21,231 nt of DNA from a virus, in IMG/VR virus record IMGVR_UViG_3300044695_001565, positions 1-21,231 of that record. One strand, given 5' to 3'. Position 1 is the first letter of the stretch; each line of letters starts with the position of its first letter. A model generated the notes under the pieces. The model searched no databases, had not been told where the DNA came from, and saw nothing but the letters and a program-made list of their open reading frames with translations. Made by a program: the position numbers and the translations under genes. This document shows positions 1 to 8,173 of this stretch, piece after piece.

Positions 1-44
1 GTATTGCTCGGCAAGGGTGTATGAGATTTTTGCCCGCCCCCCTC
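1..44. other. Short GC-rich flank, possible cos region
   Basis: These bases follow the stop codon of the HNH gene, and no gene is visible in them. Bases 31-44 are an almost uninterrupted C-rich run (G-rich on the coding strand) that stands out from the surrounding moderate-GC sequence. In many cos-type phages an HNH endonuclease gene sits beside the cohesive-end site and the terminase genes, so this is a candidate cos neighbourhood. No direct repeat or terminus is visible to prove it. Confidence 0.25.
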
Positions 45-350
45 TTATACGGGTGGGGCTTGGTTGCCTCTACGACTGTTACATGACCGATGTGCTGCAA
101 TCAAAGGACTTTGCGGATCGCTGGGGTAGTAGTGGTCAGCCGTGAACGGGTCATCTAGACGCTTGCCTTGTCCACATAGCCAGCAGACTGTTGCTGAGTC
201 TCTTACTATCTTGGCTTGCTTGGCATAACTTCCCTTGTAATGGGGTCTATTGGCGTTCCTGTGTGCATCTGCTACCTGTTGGCAGGTATCGCATAGTGAC
301 GGGTTACGGTGTAAGGCTTTGCACTTTAAGCATGGTTTGTTAAATGCCAT
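45..350 (-). CDS. HNH endonuclease with N-terminal zinc-knuckle cysteines
   Basis: The 101-residue protein has CWLCG at residues 56-60, the DH pair at 72-73 in TADHYYP, and HRSCNSRRGN at 87-96. These form the Cys-paired HNH fold (CxxC, DH, HxxCN). An additional CxxC pair of pairs (C7/C10 and C20/C23) suggests a second zinc site. HNH proteins of this size in siphophages are usually encoded beside the terminase and can act with it in DNA packaging or cos cleavage. That role is inferred here, because the terminase would lie just beyond the left edge. The ATG at 350 overlaps the preceding gene by 11 nt and has only a weak ribosome binding site. The nuclease family is clear; the packaging role is not proven. 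Confidence 0.85.
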   Translation of the reverse strand: MAFNKPCLKCKALHRNPSLCDTCQQVADAHRNANRPHYKGSYAKQAKIVRDSATVCWLCGQGKRLDDPFTADHYYPSDPQSPLIAAHRSCNSRRGNQAPPV

Positions 351-903
351 TTGCTTTGAACATTACTTTGCCATTGGTATAGGAGCGGTACTGGTCTACG
401 CTACCCCGTGTGTTGGGATCGTGCATTGAAGCTGCTTCCATAGCTCGTAATGCAGATAGGTCATGGTTCTTGTTCCAACCAACTAGGTATTGTTTATCTA
501 CTAATGAACCGATTGCTAACTCTGCGCCTGATCCTATTGCCCAGTAAGGGCTGGCTGTTAATACGCTTAGGTTCTCGCTGATAAGGAATGCTTTGCCATG
601 TGTAACAAGTAAGGCTTCTGCTTCGATGTCATCATCCTTGACCTTGTTCTCTATCAACGGCATCACCTTAGTAACTAGCCACTTCATCCAGTTGCCTGAC
701 TTAATTACATCTATTGGTGGCTTTGGATACTCAATGGAGTATTGGAGTTGGTCGCATACTCTTGCGCTCCCGGCTACACCGATAAGCCATGTATCTTGCT
801 GAACGATCTTGTGCATGTCAGGGTGAATAAGGTTTGAGGTGATGCCTTGGTCGGCTGTCAGTGTGGCGAAGTTGTTGCCTGTTGTCGTAATGATCGTGGT
901 CAT
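340..903 (-). CDS. Proteasome beta/HslV-like threonine peptidase
   Basis: The 187-residue protein matches the Ntn-hydrolase proteasome-beta/HslV family. It begins M-T-T-I, so removal of Met exposes an N-terminal Thr as in HslV, with no propeptide. Family landmarks are in order: TADQG with Asp18 (equivalent to Asp17 of the mature family), a Lys at 32 (equivalent to Lys33, two positions closer), GVAG at 42-45, IGSG at 123-126 (equivalent to Ser129) and AASMHDPNTRG at 157-167 (equivalent to Asp166 and the following glycine loop). The gene overlaps the upstream gene by an ATGA junction and the downstream HNH gene by 11 nt. No HslU-like ATPase is visible in the window, so it may work alone, use a host ATPase, or process phage structural proteins. 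The family call is from motifs; substrate and partner are unknown. Confidence 0.8.
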   Translation of the reverse strand: MTTIITTTGNNFATLTADQGITSNLIHPDMHKIVQQDTWLIGVAGSARVCDQLQYSIEYPKPPIDVIKSGNWMKWLVTKVMPLIENKVKDDDIEAEALLVTHGKAFLISENLSVLTASPYWAIGSGAELAIGSLVDKQYLVGWNKNHDLSALRAMEAASMHDPNTRGSVDQYRSYTNGKVMFKANGI

Positions 904-1196
904 AGCTTGATTCCATCTGTTAGGTGTACGCCGTATCTAACTAGATCAGCTGCTGACTGCATCCCTGCTAAGTATTCATTCGTGATAGATGAGTCACCTA
1001 ATACGCGATAGGCAGCCATTGCTTCTATCTCTGCATCTAAGACGGATGCTATTGCCATGCGTGTAATGCCAACGCTTAGGCTCATGCGCTTGATGCTGAC
1101 TTCTAGCTTGTCAATGTCTGCTTCTGGTTTGTTCTTTAGAGCAGAGCGAACCAAGTCATTGTGAATTGTTACGCCTACGGTGTCAGTCCAGTTCAT
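900..1196 (-). CDS. Hypothetical phage protein, helical
   Basis: The 98-residue protein was not recognised. It looks mostly alpha-helical and mildly acidic, with no cysteine and no membrane segment. A basic stretch KRMSLS lies near residues 36-41, and an Ala/Met-rich helix around residues 47-65. Its TGA overlaps the ATG of the proteasome-like gene (ATGA), so the two are probably translationally coupled, and a functional link to the peptidase is possible but unsupported. The ATG at 1196 lies 12 nt after the stop of the preceding 38-codon gene and lacks a strong ribosome binding site. Confidence 0.6.
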   Translation of the reverse strand: MNWTDTVGVTIHNDLVRSALKNKPEADIDKLEVSIKRMSLSVGITRMAIASVLDAEIEAMAAYRVLGDSSITNEYLAGMQSAADLVRYGVHLTDGIKL

Positions 1197-1208: not shown

Positions 1209-1325
1209 TTAAGGTCTAAGGCTTGATTTGTCTATTGACACGTTGGCAGCCTGTAAACATTCGTAGTAACTCTCGTGGTCTTGTGTATCACAACCTGAAC
1301 GGCAGATGCCATTTGGTTCAGTCAT
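1209..1325 (-). CDS. Short Cys-containing actinophage peptide
   Basis: This 38-codon frame lies between two larger genes. The product runs MTEPNGICRSGCDTQDHESY, then YECLQAANVSIDKSSLRP. Its ATG shares one base with the stop of the upstream HNH gene (TAATG). The pattern C-x3-C-x3-DH-x-SY-x2-C-L-x-A-AN resembles, from memory, a short motif that recurs in small hypothetical proteins of actinobacterial phages. Three cysteines and one histidine (C8, C12, H17, C23) could bind a metal. Function is unknown. The coupled start and the motif are the evidence that it is real. Confidence 0.65.
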   Translation of the reverse strand: MTEPNGICRSGCDTQDHESYYECLQAANVSIDKSSLRP

Positions 1326-1597
1326 TAGTCATCCCAGCTATTCTTTAGAAAACCCTCAGCCTTACCTTGTGCCGGGTTCTGCGTTATGTAAGTGTGGCAA
1401 GGTCTACAAAGTAGCGCAAGGTTATCCCTATCCACAATGCTTCCACCTCTAGCGCGTGTCTTGATCTCGTGTACGTCTGTTGCATAAGCAATTGCGCAAC
1501 GCTGGCAGGCTGGGAAGTCCCGTAGCAACTCTTTAACCAACTTACGGCGTTCAGTTGCGTACAGGCTTTCCATCTTCTTAGAACGTGGTCTAATCAT
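1325..1597 (-). CDS. HNH endonuclease
   Basis: This 90-residue compact HNH nuclease has C31/C34 (CQRC), the catalytic HE pair at 43-44 in TDVHEIKTRARGG, the central Asn at 59 (RDNLALLC), and C64/C67/H68 in LLCRPCH. The arrangement CxxC...HE...N...CxxCH is typical of small phage HNH proteins. It differs from the HNH gene at 45-350, so the two are not recent duplicates. The start overlaps the end of the zinc-ribbon-like gene by 8 nt. It could be a packaging-associated nuclease or a free-standing homing-type endonuclease; its position inside a coupled gene string favours a resident phage gene. Confidence 0.88.
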   Translation of the reverse strand: MIRPRSKKMESLYATERRKLVKELLRDFPACQRCAIAYATDVHEIKTRARGGSIVDRDNLALLCRPCHTYITQNPAQGKAEGFLKNSWDD

Positions 1598-1859
1598 TGA
1601 AAGTGGTATCTCTAATGACTGCGATGCAACGCAACCTCATTACTTCCATTGCAATAGTGAAGTCGTGATCCTCATCCTTTGTGTCTATCGCTTGGATCGC
1701 TTCTAGCAACGTGTCACGGTATGCCAGCAGGCTTTTGTTCCTATAACAACTAGGGCATTGGTGCGACACAGTTGGTGGCTCTGTCTTGTAGTCGTGGACT
1801 TGCCACCAGCCATCCCCAATAGAGGATGACCGGGGACAGTAGCCACACTTATTTGTCAT
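1590..1859 (-). CDS. Putative zinc-ribbon protein
   Basis: The 89-residue protein has CGYC at residues 5-8 and CPSC at 35-38, two CxxC knuckles 27 residues apart, as expected for a zinc ribbon. The remainder is a helical, acidic C-terminal part. No catalytic motif is visible. It overlaps its neighbours by 11 nt upstream and 8 nt downstream, between a small membrane protein and an HNH nuclease. Zinc ribbons of this type usually bind nucleic acid or protein partners; the actual role is unknown. Confidence 0.65.
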   Translation of the reverse strand: MTNKCGYCPRSSSIGDGWWQVHDYKTEPPTVSHQCPSCYRNKSLLAYRDTLLEAIQAIDTKDEDHDFTIAMEVMRLRCIAVIRDTTFND

Positions 1860-2052
1860 CAGTAAACGGCTTTGTTAGTTCCTCTGTGTATGCGTACTCA
1901 CGATCTAAAGCTGCAAAGATTGGCTCTAATGAGTCACCTTCATCTTTTAGGTGAACAAACTGCATCTTGCTGTGGTGTAATGCTAGGCGATAGCCTGCAA
2001 GAAACGTCACTATTGTCACTGTCATAACTGATAGAACTAGGGCGATAATCAT
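1849..2052 (-). CDS. Small membrane protein
   Basis: The product is 67 residues from the ATG at 2052, which overlaps the SSB stop codon (ATGA). A longer reading from a TTG at 2058 is less likely. Residues 1-23 (MIIALVLSVMTVTIVTFLAG) form one hydrophobic helix, followed by a short basic patch and an acidic cytoplasm-like tail rich in Glu and Asp. This suggests a single-span inner membrane protein. It lies at the end of the replication/recombination string, and no family was recognised. Confidence 0.65.
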   Translation of the reverse strand: MIIALVLSVMTVTIVTFLAGYRLALHHSKMQFVHLKDEGDSLEPIFAALDREYAYTEELTKPFTDDK

Positions 2053-2426
2053 AACCAAGGATCCTCTGTTAGGTCTTTCGTTGCTGGTGCTTTGTTAGCC
2101 TTAACCACTGCTGCAATTTCATCAGCTGCAATCTCAACTGTTGTACGCTCAACACCGTTCTTGTCCTCGTACTTAACGATCTTGCACTTGCCTACAACTA
2201 GAACCGCTTGACCTTTCTTAAAGGTTTCAGTTGCTGCATCTGCCAGACCGCGCCATAGAACTACGTCAAAGTAACTAGGTTCACCGTCTGACCATGTTCC
2301 GTCTTGTGCTTTCTTGCGCTCATTGCAGGCAATGCGCATCTTGCACATGCTGATTCCTGAGCTAGTAGCGCGAAACTCTGGGTCAAAAACCAAGTTTCCT
2401 ACTGCTGTGATTGTTGGTAGTGCCAT
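2049..2426 (-). CDS. ssb: Single-stranded DNA-binding protein
   Basis: The 125-residue protein has an OB-fold SSB pattern: ITAVGNLVFDPEFRAT at 6-21, an aromatic/basic core with SYFDVVLWRG at 51-60, and KGQAVLVVGKCKIVKYEDKNG around residues 71-91. It ends in an acidic tail, DLTEDPWL, which replaces the DDDIPF tip of bacterial SSB that recruits partner proteins. The length is shorter than bacterial SSB, as in other phage versions. It protects ssDNA during phage replication and recombination, next to RusA and the annealing protein. The ATG is coupled to the WhiB stop (TAATG) and preceded by a strong AGGAG site. Confidence 0.93.
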   Translation of the reverse strand: MALPTITAVGNLVFDPEFRATSSGISMCKMRIACNERKKAQDGTWSDGEPSYFDVVLWRGLADAATETFKKGQAVLVVGKCKIVKYEDKNGVERTTVEIAADEIAAVVKANKAPATKDLTEDPWL

Positions 2427-2758
2427 TATCTTGCTCCTGTTTCTCTTAATCGCTCACGCGATGCTCTTTTGTTTCTTGCATCCCTTGTATCGGCTGCAAA
2501 CTCGTGTTTGTATTCTTCATCTATTCGTATTGGTGTTATGCCAAAGAACCTGCGTAATTCAACGCGCTCTTTGTCTGACGTTCCTGCCCACCATCCATCA
2601 ACCTTTACCTTTAGCGAGTAGTCAAGACAGTCATTGAAGATTGGGCAATGTAGGCAAGTCTTCTTTAGCAAGTCCTCTAGCTTGTCGCTGATGTTGTTAG
2701 TTGGAAAGAATAACTCTGGGTCTAACCCAATACAAGCTGCGCCCTCTGTGTTAAACAT
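2426..2758 (-). CDS. WhiB-like iron-sulfur transcription regulator 1
   Basis: The product is 110 residues from the ATG at 2758, which has GAGGTG four bases upstream. Longer readings from TTG codons would overlap RusA further. WhiB hallmarks are C9, C35, C38 and C44 (the four-Cys [4Fe-4S] ligand set: AAC, then KKTCLHC, then DC), LFFP at 17-20, and a turn GWWAG at 55-59 that replaces the usual G(V/I)WGG, followed by TSDKERVELRR. The C-terminal tail is Arg/Lys-rich and probably binds DNA. WhiB proteins bind sigma factors and regulate transcription; phage copies can dominate host WhiB regulation. It sits between RusA and SSB in an early-type operon. Confidence 0.88.
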   Translation of the reverse strand: MFNTEGAACIGLDPELFFPTNNISDKLEDLLKKTCLHCPIFNDCLDYSLKVKVDGWWAGTSDKERVELRRFFGITPIRIDEEYKHEFAADTRDARNKRASRERLRETGAR

Positions 2759-3170
2759 CCTGCACCTCGCTTGCAATGATCTGGCAACCAATTCTGTCTG
2801 TGGCGTACTGCTTAGATGCGCTCACAGCTATTACTAAAGCATCATCTGTATAGAGTCCACCCGTAGTCAAGCCATCAAAGGTTGAACGAATCAACTTATC
2901 TAGATCAGGCTTAACGCTGGGCCATAGCCGAGTAACAGTCTTAGGTCTAGGTAAGTAAAACACCAACGCGATCTCTACCGGGGTAGTCATTGTCCACTGC
3001 TCTGCATTAGGCCATTTACTAGCTCGATACTCTTGCGTTTGAGCTGCAACGGCTTCGCGCCAAGGCTTAACCTTTTTGCTTGACTCAACCATAACTACGC
3101 GACCATTCTTCACAAAGCCATTCTTAGAACCTTGCGGTGCTGGCTCGCCCTCAACAAAATAACTAATCAC
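2751..3170 (-). CDS. rusA: RusA-like Holliday junction resolvase
   Basis: The product is 139 residues from a GTG at 3170 that overlaps the upstream TGA (GTGA). A TTG 12 nt earlier is possible but less likely. RusA features are the N-terminal strand with GEPAPQGSK, the invariant KPDLDKL (Asp89 and Asp91 from the chosen start), FDGLTTGG, and the YTDDALV acidic pair near residues 109-110. These acidic residues correspond to the metal-binding Asp triad of E. coli RusA. The enzyme resolves four-way junctions and branched intermediates before packaging. It lies in a string with an annealing protein and SSB, which fits a phage recombination module. Confidence 0.9.
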   Translation of the reverse strand: MISYFVEGEPAPQGSKNGFVKNGRVVMVESSKKVKPWREAVAAQTQEYRASKWPNAEQWTMTTPVEIALVFYLPRPKTVTRLWPSVKPDLDKLIRSTFDGLTTGGLYTDDALVIAVSASKQYATDRIGCQIIASEVQDV

Positions 3171-3463
3171 ACGCCTATCCAAACTGCGTGAACTGAGCCA
3201 TGTGACTCTTTGCGTTTTGCTGTCGCGTAACCCACCTTGCGAATAATGCCAGCCTTAGCAGCTTTGTTCATTACTGCGCCTGATGCGTTGTTCTTGTTCA
3301 TACCTACGCCACCTGACGGCAACCCGGTAAGGGCTAGAACATCCTCGCTAGTAAATTGAACCTTGCGACTTGCTAACAGTTTTATCGCTTCAAAGGCTTG
3401 CTCTGACCAAACAGGCTGGGCATCTAGAGCCAGTTGCATTCCGTGTTCTTTTAGGTCACTCAT
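3167..3463 (-). CDS. Winged-helix-like phage protein
   Basis: The 98-residue protein has the helical pattern RKVQFTSEDVLALTGLPSGG, then NNASGAVMNKAAKAGIIRKVGY and a short beta hairpin ending VHAVWIGV. This helix-turn-helix followed by a wing suggests DNA binding. Similar small proteins occur in actinophage replication regions; this is recalled, not searched. It overlaps RusA by a GTGA junction and the upstream small membrane gene by 8 nt. A regulatory or replication-accessory role is plausible but unproven. Confidence 0.65.
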   Translation of the reverse strand: MSDLKEHGMQLALDAQPVWSEQAFEAIKLLASRKVQFTSEDVLALTGLPSGGVGMNKNNASGAVMNKAAKAGIIRKVGYATAKRKESHGSVHAVWIGV

Positions 3464-4943: not shown

Positions 4944-5282
4944 CTAATTTGTGTAGGCAAAAACCCTAAGAAACCGCCGTTTTTCTAGTTTGTCCTTTGG
5001 AACCTTGCCAGACTTGCTTAGTTTGTAACGCTCATCAGGTGTCATTCCACCCCACATACCCCATTTCTCGTCTAGGCCGATCTCTAGACAGAAGCCCACA
5101 ACTGGGCATTCTTCACATAGACGTTTGGCTGTGGCGTATAGGTGCGGTTCATCATTCTCTGGAAAGCAAGTATCCGGGTGCGAATCTCTACAAGCTGCGG
5201 AATACATCCATGAATCTGGAGCAGTACAAATCAGGCACATTCCTGAATCTAGCCACGCTTCATGGTCGCAATCTTTGAGCAT
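4944..5282 (-). CDS. WhiB-like iron-sulfur transcription regulator 2
   Basis: This 112-residue protein is a canonical WhiB: SAACRDSHPD at 28-37 with C31, then CFPEN, then AKRLCEECPVVGFC at 52-65 giving C56, C59 and C65, and the signature turn GMWGG at 75-79 followed by MTPDER. The tail is Lys/Arg-rich. An N-terminal extension carries C5 and a CLIC pair (C16/C19), outside the usual four-Cys set, which may bind a second metal. It differs clearly from WhiB 1. It sits after the helicase-loader-like gene and before the regulatory leader at 4806-4943. The ATG at 5282 has only a weak GGATGG site. Confidence 0.93.
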   Translation of the reverse strand: MLKDCDHEAWLDSGMCLICTAPDSWMYSAACRDSHPDTCFPENDEPHLYATAKRLCEECPVVGFCLEIGLDEKWGMWGGMTPDERYKLSKSGKVPKDKLEKRRFLRVFAYTN

Positions 5283-6789: not shown

Positions 6790-6941
6790 TGCTTTGCTCC
6801 TGTCATTAGCTCTATTGCTGATCTGATCACTTGACTTACATTGGCGTTGTGTTGATGCGCCCATTGTCTAACTGCAAGCATCTGTTCATTGTTAAGACGC
6901 AAGGCAATCATGTTTTCTTTGTTTTCTTTTTCGTCAGCCAT
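6786..6941 (-). CDS. Ribbon-helix-helix (CopG/Arc-like) DNA-binding protein
   Basis: The 51-residue product begins MADEKENKENMIALRLNNEQ and continues to SQVIRSAIELMTGAKQ. The layout is a single strand (MIALRLN, the ribbon), helix 1 (NEQMLAVRQWAHQH) and helix 2 (VSQVIRSAIELM), exactly the RHH fold, with Asn/Val-Ser at the turn. GGAAGG lies seven bases before the ATG, and the TGA overlaps the next ATG (ATGA). RHH dimers bind short palindromes and often repress their own operon. The palindrome at 8182-8200 before the methyltransferase is a candidate target (inference). Confidence 0.8.
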   Translation of the reverse strand: MADEKENKENMIALRLNNEQMLAVRQWAHQHNANVSQVIRSAIELMTGAKQ

Positions 6942-7491
6942 TGCTAACCCTTCCTAGTTGTTGTCCTATTGACTCAATTACGTTTACTGTCACTGCGTTT
7001 CCCATTTGCCGGTAACGCTGCGAATCCGACTGTGATTCAGTCCAGCCGTCAGGGAAGCCCTGTAAGCGTTCACATTCCATAGGAGTTAAACGGCGAACTT
7101 GTAACGGTTCAGCTATAAAAGTTTGCGCGTGATGTGACTGCACACTTGGTTGTAATGCTTGCAATGCTCTCGCCTGTTCTATTTCTGTTGCGCTGAAATT
7201 GTTTGCTGTTGCATCTTCACGAATTGAGTAAGCAATAGCAGGCACATTGCCGCCACCAGTTCCCCAGCGTTGTATAACTGTCTGCATTGTTTCTTCATCT
7301 GTCACGCGCACGTCACCTACTCTTGTTCCGTCAATAATCAACACCGTTGCCCTACTCTCTCCACCATTATCAAATGCGTTTAAGGTAGTACAAACCCCAC
7401 CTTCATTCCAAGTTTCATCGTCATTCTCATTTTGTGCGCGGCGTGATTTAACAAACCAATAAAGAGTCACTACCGCCACCCAACGCACCAC
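6934..7491 (-). CDS. Cytosine-C5 methyltransferase, C-terminal part (motifs IX-X)
   Basis: This frame carries the end of a DNA cytosine-5 methyltransferase: RRLTPMECERLQGFPDGW at 133-150 (motif IX) and RQMGNAVTVNVIESIG at 161-176 (motif X). The preceding 110 residues fit the variable target-recognition region (GVCTTLNAFDNGGESR and others). It overlaps the N-terminal part by 44 nt in the +1 frame relative to it, so one base must be skipped to join them. A possible separate start is a GTG at 7470, with GGTGG upstream, giving MTLYWFVKSRR. So it may be a separate subunit, a +1 frameshift product, or the result of a one-base sequence error or mutation. Confidence 0.8.
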   Translation of the reverse strand: MVRWVAVVTLYWFVKSRRAQNENDDETWNEGGVCTTLNAFDNGGESRATVLIIDGTRVGDVRVTDEETMQTVIQRWGTGGGNVPAIAYSIREDATANNFSATEIEQARALQALQPSVQSHHAQTFIAEPLQVRRLTPMECERLQGFPDGWTESQSDSQRYRQMGNAVTVNVIESIGQQLGRVSNG

Positions 7492-8173
7492 CAGAAACAG
7501 TTAGAGTTGAAACTCTTCCTTCTCTGTATCCTGCAAAGCTAGATTCGCCGTAGACTCCAACGCTGTCTGAAGCGGTGCTGGAAGTAGTTTGCCCCGTTTG
7601 TTCGCTCGTCTCAGAATTCCCTGTGCTGCTTTCGCACTTAGAAAGTATTTCTCTAAAGGGTTTTGTTCCAACACTTGCGACAACAAAGACTCTTCTACGG
7701 CGTTGGGGGACTCCGAAGAATTGCGAATCAAGCAAACGCCATTCGATGTTGCTATACCCTGAGTCGGCCAATGCAGTGAGGACTGCTCCGAAGTCGCGTC
7801 CTTGATTGCTTGAAAGAAGTCCCGGCACGTTTTCCAAGAGGATAGTTTCTGCTTTGGTATGCGTTGCGAAACGCAAAGCGTCATAGAAAAGTCCACTTCG
7901 TTTGCCAGATAAGCCAGCTCGCTTTCCTGCAACAGAGAGGTCTTGGCAGGGGAATCCGCCACAAACAAGGTCAATGTTTCCTGTGAGTCCAATTTGATCA
8001 GCCCAATCTATTGCCGTAGTTACGTCATCGTGTTTTGGAACGTTAGGAAACTGCAACTCAAGCACAGACCTAGCGTGTTTATCTATCTCAACTTGACCAA
8101 CGCAAGTGTGACCTGAGCGTTCTAGCCCTAGATCGAATCCACCTACGCCAGCGAATAAGGATACAAACTTCAT
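7448..8173 (-). CDS. Cytosine-C5 methyltransferase, N-terminal part (motifs I-VIII)
   Basis: The 241-residue product has motif I SLFAGVGGFDLGLE at 5-18 (SAM binding), motif IV FPCQDLS with the catalytic Cys at 76, motif VI ENV at 114-116 and motif VIII QRRRR at 157-161. A linker SSFAGYREGR...GGALGGGSDS follows before the frame ends, where family members continue into the recognition domain. It would transfer a methyl group to C5 of cytosine in phage DNA, to evade restriction or for regulation. No restriction partner is seen. The ATG at 8173 has no ribosome binding site but lies eight bases after a TATAAC box, which suggests a leaderless transcript. Confidence 0.9.
   Translation of the reverse strand: MKFVSLFAGVGGFDLGLERSGHTCVGQVEIDKHARSVLELQFPNVPKHDDVTTAIDWADQIGLTGNIDLVCGGFPCQDLSVAGKRAGLSGKRSGLFYDALRFATHTKAETILLENVPGLLSSNQGRDFGAVLTALADSGYSNIEWRLLDSQFFGVPQRRRRVFVVASVGTKPFREILSKCESSTGNSETSEQTGQTTSSTASDSVGVYGESSFAGYREGRVSTLTVSGGALGGGSDSLLVC

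Follow-up and report, generated by a model that had tools for sequence, protein, structure and literature searches.

The peptidase gene and its product

A stretch of viral DNA of 21,231 nucleotides (IMG/VR record IMGVR_UViG_3300044695_001565, positions 1 to 21,231; termed the window below) carries near its first base a gene for a threonine peptidase that appears to be of the proteasome/HslV type. The kind of protein is already known, and what is new is its genomic context. The gene and the codons of key residues are located as follows, the assignment being based upon the open reading frame (ORF), profile matches, predicted fold and alignments.

340..903, minus strand: proteasome/HslV-type N-terminal threonine peptidase, 187 aa
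898-900: Thr2
850-852: Asp18
808-810: Lys32
769-771: Gly45
529-531: Ser125
418-420: Asp162

The reading frame starts with an ATG codon, and the first residues are MTTIITTTGNN. An earlier note, made from the DNA alone, had proposed a peptidase of this type without a propeptide, and its residue numbers are correct (Met1-Thr2-Thr3, Asp18, Lys32, AIGSG with Ser125, and HDPNTRG at 161-167). The class is supported by the PHROG 1040 profile ‘peptidase HslV family’ (E = 1.1e-19, 72 bits), by the predicted proteasome fold and by the aligned catalytic residues; judged by sequence and model, the product is a proteasome/HslV-fold N-terminal nucleophile (Ntn) hydrolase, as the note had observed. Two further profile matches had been suggested as a check. 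That to the Pfam Proteasome profile (PF00227) is found at E = 1.1e-3, under its curated cut-off, whereas the HslV profile TIGR03692 gives no match at E ≤ 1 and its NCBIfam curated cut-off is not reached. The PrcB profile TIGR03690 has no match at E ≤ 1 either, and the propeptide required for that class is also lacking. That the similarity is beyond chance is indicated by the E-values for PHROG 1040 and PF00227, together with the homologous loci and the purifying selection described below.

The predicted structure (of the monomer, by AlphaFold2) agrees with what the note had anticipated, having a proteasome-type Ntn fold over the whole chain. The model has a predicted local distance difference test score (pLDDT) of 85.2 and a predicted template modelling score of 0.84; confidence across the five models is 57-85, and residues 21-27 are uncertain. 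Its best solved matches in VIA-align are proteasome β subunits (Z = 19.1 over 178 residues, 3.1 Å to 6bdf), with BPH among the top matches in Foldseek. Model residues 2..187 lie over residues 1..191 of the proteasome β chain, such that Thr2 is superposed on Thr1. The helices comprise residues 47-56 (H1), 64-69/72-87, 127-137 and 143-161. A profile of 35 relatives retrieves the T. acidophilum proteasome β subunit from the PDB (E = 0.0018), with T2 aligned to T1, D18 to D17, K32 to K33, S125 to S129, D162 to D166 and T165 to S169; G45 is the equivalent of Gly47 from sequence and alignment. The functional roles of these residues we take to be those established for the proteasome β subunit. With Thr, Asp, Lys and Gly all present, the active site is intact as far as the sequence can reveal it. 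The peptidase shares with BPH (5ovs/5ovt), HslV and proteasome β the fold, the N-terminal Thr and the equivalents of Asp17, Lys33, Gly47 and Ser129. It differs in sequence (9-20% identity in the fold alignments), in falling short of the HslV and PrcB cut-offs, and in that no HslU was found with it.

Scans of IMG/VR gave 38-39 homologous loci, at 45-98% identity. Where the 5′ end of the gene is complete, as it is in 35 relatives, the start codon (ATG or GTG) always precedes a Thr codon (ACN), from which it follows that the proteins would have no propeptide and that Thr would be residue 2. T2, D18, K32 and G45 are invariant among the sequences of the 35-sequence alignment that extend to those positions, and the catalytic residues are likewise conserved in a joint alignment of 31 sequences. 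The homologs also contain the strongly conserved non-catalytic motifs IHPDM and PYWAIGSG. The median pairwise dN/dS of the peptidase is 0.113 (0.122 for the major capsid protein and 0.065 for TerL of the same genomes), and by this measure the gene is under purifying selection.

Such proteins are not rare in phages, as the earlier note had supposed. There are 35 viral models in BFVD at E ≤ 1e-3 and a whole PHROG, and in 2021 Fuchs, Alva and Lupas described the group I proteasome homologs PPH and AAH in phages (PMC8665760). These were reported without functional context or AAA+ partners, AAH being found in no Actinobacteria-specific phage (PMC8665760), and since that year the phage homologs have remained sequences whose genome context offered no hint of function. 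The window peptidase resembles them as a compact group I homolog with no propeptide and no AAA+ partner seen. PPH, however, has ~140 aa and lacks helix H2, and identity with PPH is ruled out by the 187-aa length and by the helices at 64-69 and 72-87 that follow H1 in the model. Annotated phage members of PHROG 1040 include Microbacterium phage Pumpernickel gp135, Actinomycetia phage DSL-LC01 WJZ48484, and proteins of Psychrobacter phage D'Alembert and of Vibrio phages. They have the same profile family, MT start, Asp, Lys and GSG, but identity is low and a single-sequence tblastn with the window protein missed them. Their genes lie among tRNA/ThyX, WhiB or small uncharacterised genes, whereas that of the window is beside a cos end and an HNH gene. 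A profile search of genome contigs with one alignment (A1) found no bacterial copy, and a second profile (A4) matches 1 of 396 actinobacterial genomes, where the matches to phrog_1040 are mostly ORFs of PrcB size. With the A2 and A4 profiles, other phage homologs far outscore E. coli HslV and PrcB. No functional study of the phage members emerged from the literature searches, and the gene is not mentioned in the freshwater actinophage papers that were searched for protease or peptidase, although the paper on phages E7 and F5, which are described below, refers broadly to genes that degrade host proteins (PMC10202952).

Position at the chromosome end

The window is a 21-kb fragment without head genes, and gene order was taken from related genomes of 31-35 kb. 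The features around the peptidase gene are listed below.

1..44, no strand: right-hand terminus of the linear chromosome, formed by a cos site, where seven contigs end at the same base
45..350, minus strand: HNH endonuclease (family F13; phrog_338, E = 9e-7), overlapping the end of the peptidase gene and the last gene before the chromosome end
900..1196, minus strand: 98-aa protein, function not assigned (family F14; RHH_8 match below cut-off), overlapping the start of the peptidase gene by 4 bp
1325..3182, minus strand: DNA-metabolism/regulatory module, with HNH (1325-1597), SSB (2049-2426), WhiB (2426-2791) and RusA (2751-3182)
4944..5282, minus strand: second WhiB-like regulator, used as a marker of an actinobacterial host

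In order, the genomes of the relatives encode MTase, TerS, TerL, portal, S78 prohead protease, major capsid and tail proteins, and then continue through lysis and replication genes into RusA, WhiB, SSB, HNH, the 98-aa protein, the peptidase and the final HNH. Seven contigs (the window included) end at one base beyond the last HNH gene, and three start at one base. In two permuted relatives the ends are linked via CCCGACCTA or CCCGACCAA, i.e. CCCGACC(T/A)A, the junctions being located at L061/L062 (G012) and L143/L144 (G004). The end of G012 is repeated over 118 bp, and this genome is therefore complete. These sequences identify base 1 of the window as a genuine terminus of the chromosome, at a cos site common to the phage group, for which we infer a 9-nt overhang. 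The earlier note had placed the gene near the packaging end, and the cos end indeed lies ~45 bp past the gene that follows the peptidase. In virion DNA the right arm therefore has the peptidase as its second-last gene, well away from the head genes, which it adjoins in the circular form. On a second, largely unrelated backbone (G017/L038) the peptidase is again beside RusA, HNH and SSB, upstream of the terminase.

The peptidase gene is accessory in this phage group. It is absent from G018, a relative with 78% TerL identity, in which a 61-aa acidic ORF (L139:12140-12330) takes its place between the 98-aa gene and HNH; six other TerL-seeded contigs that span the site carry it. The 98-aa gene is present in most relatives. 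As an obligate partner of the peptidase it can be rejected, since either gene occurs alone (the 98-aa gene in G018, the peptidase in G014). The 4-bp ATGA overlap of the two genes was discounted as evidence in itself, because every ATG-ACN (Met-Thr) start reads ATGA. A DNA methyltransferase gene stands between the two in G006 (L046:14606-15850, of the N6/N4 type), G002, G013 and G004.

Head maturation and the sister clade

One role offered in the earlier note was that of a prohead protease. In the window group this is contradicted by a separate S78 prohead protease, located between the portal and major capsid genes and matched in all 17 relative genomes (16 above the cut-off with E ≤ 2e-44, and the 17th weakly, at 3.4e-4 and under the cut-off). 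The peptidase lies outside the head module, at the opposite end of the virion chromosome, and is dispensable in one relative; it was accordingly rejected as the prohead protease of its own group. One S78 ORF of 571 aa (L047:6375-8090) has a HAD/polynucleotide-kinase-phosphatase-like domain fused to the protease; some relatives have a short S78 frame of only 239-315 aa.

What favours a capsid maturation role comes from a divergent sister clade. Searched against 50,697 phage records, the window peptidase matches only OX376640 and OX376641 (32-33% identity). These are the phages LanE43-AprE7 and LanE43-AprF5 (E7 and F5), isolated on ‘Ca. Planktophila’ LanE-43 (PMC10202952). Their HslV-like protein belongs to the same family (33% identity, profile-profile probability of 99.6 in hhalign, PHROG 1040 E = 4e-30) and has the same catalytic residues. 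The confident model predicted for a close relative of this protein (pLDDT 90.5) is closest to BPH, archaeal proteasome β and HslV, which are tied at Z = 18.5-18.8. An IMG/VR scan with the E7-type homolog gave 144 relatives, of which 80 were kept. Unlike that of the window, the E7-type gene is in the head module, the portal gene (phrog_104) ending directly upstream of it in 81 of 82 loci, and the S78 profile found no match in 13 E7-type genomes. One gene of this type (L210:1002-1544) has an in-frame stop at codon 53. A ClpP-like gene was looked for in E7 and F5 and none was found, and E7 has a separate scaffold-like gene and a major capsid gene further down. Shortly past the portal-peptidase pair E7 encodes a 1764-aa protein (L041:8727-14021) without a PHROG match, which is possibly an internal virion protein and a substrate of the peptidase.

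A maturation protease is dispensable for many phages, so the place of the E7-type gene after the portal gives its position and not its function. The neighbour search proposed in the earlier note has two outcomes: in the window group the peptidase lies away from the head genes, while in the E7/F5 clade it directly follows the portal. The prohead idea survives for that clade only, and for the window peptidase it is very improbable. One lineage might have taken two roles, with an Ntn-type head-assembly protease replacing the serine prohead protease in E7/F5, and a stand-alone ring protease remodelling proteasome-free freshwater actinobacterial hosts in the window clade; this we regard as doubtful. 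Should the E7-type enzyme indeed mature heads, it would define a new class among capsid maturation proteases.

Hosts and action during infection

The window phage is a freshwater phage, probably of an actinobacterium. Its two WhiB genes and 46.0% GC (46.5% in LanE-43; PMC10202952) suggest a host in the Nanopelagicales. LanE-43 and other Planktophila genomes were identified by means of the AcI-852 probe sequence (PMC3699509). Of the 81 genomes in the order of LanE-43, two encode PrcB and LanE-43 does not, against 88 of 198 genomes sampled as a control across the phylum Actinobacteriota. PHROG 1040 matches only the same two members of the order (L247 and L248), whose full PrcB means that loss of the proteasome is incomplete there. 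The earlier note had also proposed a counter to the host proteasome. Since LanE-43 and 79 of the 81 genomes lack PrcB, the peptidase of the cultured system is not aimed at a host proteasome, and this proposal was rejected. A related idea is that the protein acts as a decoy or inhibitor, blocking the proteasome of the host or mixing with it. Many Actinobacteriota do possess a 20S proteasome, but LanE-43, the demonstrated host of E7 and F5, and nearly all of its order lack PrcB; moreover, ARC/Mpa is not above the cut-off in three genomes tested, and the active site of the peptidase is intact rather than decayed. A decoy is hence barely credible.

In the window group the peptidase most likely cuts proteins during infection and does not mature heads. 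This is argued by the S78 protease of the relatives and by the position at the right end with RusA, SSB, WhiB and HNH. The recurrence of that setting on the second backbone and the accessory nature of the gene point the same way, and the best remaining reading is a tool directed at proteins of the host or the phage. As the earlier note had remarked, no ATPase partner is visible: an AAA_2 (HslU/ClpX-type) profile has no match in any of 17 relative genomes (the window being a fragment), and in ten relatives and the window a search for the Walker-A pattern, a weak method, gave no convincing unfoldase candidate. We put at about even the chance that the Thr peptidase assembles by itself, has no unfoldase of its own and cuts proteins of the host or the phage in the early or middle part of infection. 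Met1 would be removed by the host methionine aminopeptidase, exposing the Thr, and the subunits would self-assemble into a ring or double ring with hidden active sites, as in BPH and HslV. As no unfoldase is seen alongside, the substrates, of host or phage, are proposed to be unfolded, small or delivered by adaptors. The timing could serve host takeover or clearance of a regulator or defence protein.

Several points weigh against this. The host is deduced from WhiB and 46% GC only, and the prohead protease of the window phage itself from relatives, its head genes being outside the fragment. Profiling covered a single ATPase family and the Walker-A search has little power, which leaves room for an unusual partner. 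A monomer model is unable to show a ring.

Alternatively the Ntn hydrolase could degrade proteins in an ATP-dependent way by taking the place of ClpP at a hijacked AAA+ unfoldase of the host (ClpX, ClpC or FtsH-like). It is established that the well-studied HslV and 20S enzymes all benefit from an unfoldase, and LanE-43 has two ClpP homologs, so that Clp unfoldases are expected there. HslU C-termini, however, dock in pockets of HslV, and LanE-43 has no HslV-like gene that could be found and no ARC/Mpa over the cut-off; such a pairing is unlikely. A highly specific processing enzyme or ligase in place of a degradative ring protease is rather less likely. Connectase demonstrates that the fold is capable of such chemistry (PMC8665760), and the motifs IHPDM and PYWAIGSG may be substrate-specific, but the predicted helices listed above include no connectase-type insertion.

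If the window-type enzyme is a takeover tool, phages would be bringing a compartmental protease to hosts whose own has been lost. The two phage groups, one with cultured phages and a proteasome-free cultured host, provide contrasting contexts in which these roles can be tested.

Elsewhere in the window, a C5-cytosine methyltransferase at 6934-8173 is apparently spread over two overlapping ORFs, 7448-8173 for the N-terminal half and 6934-7491 for a C-terminal-like end, which suggests a frameshift, either real or from assembly.
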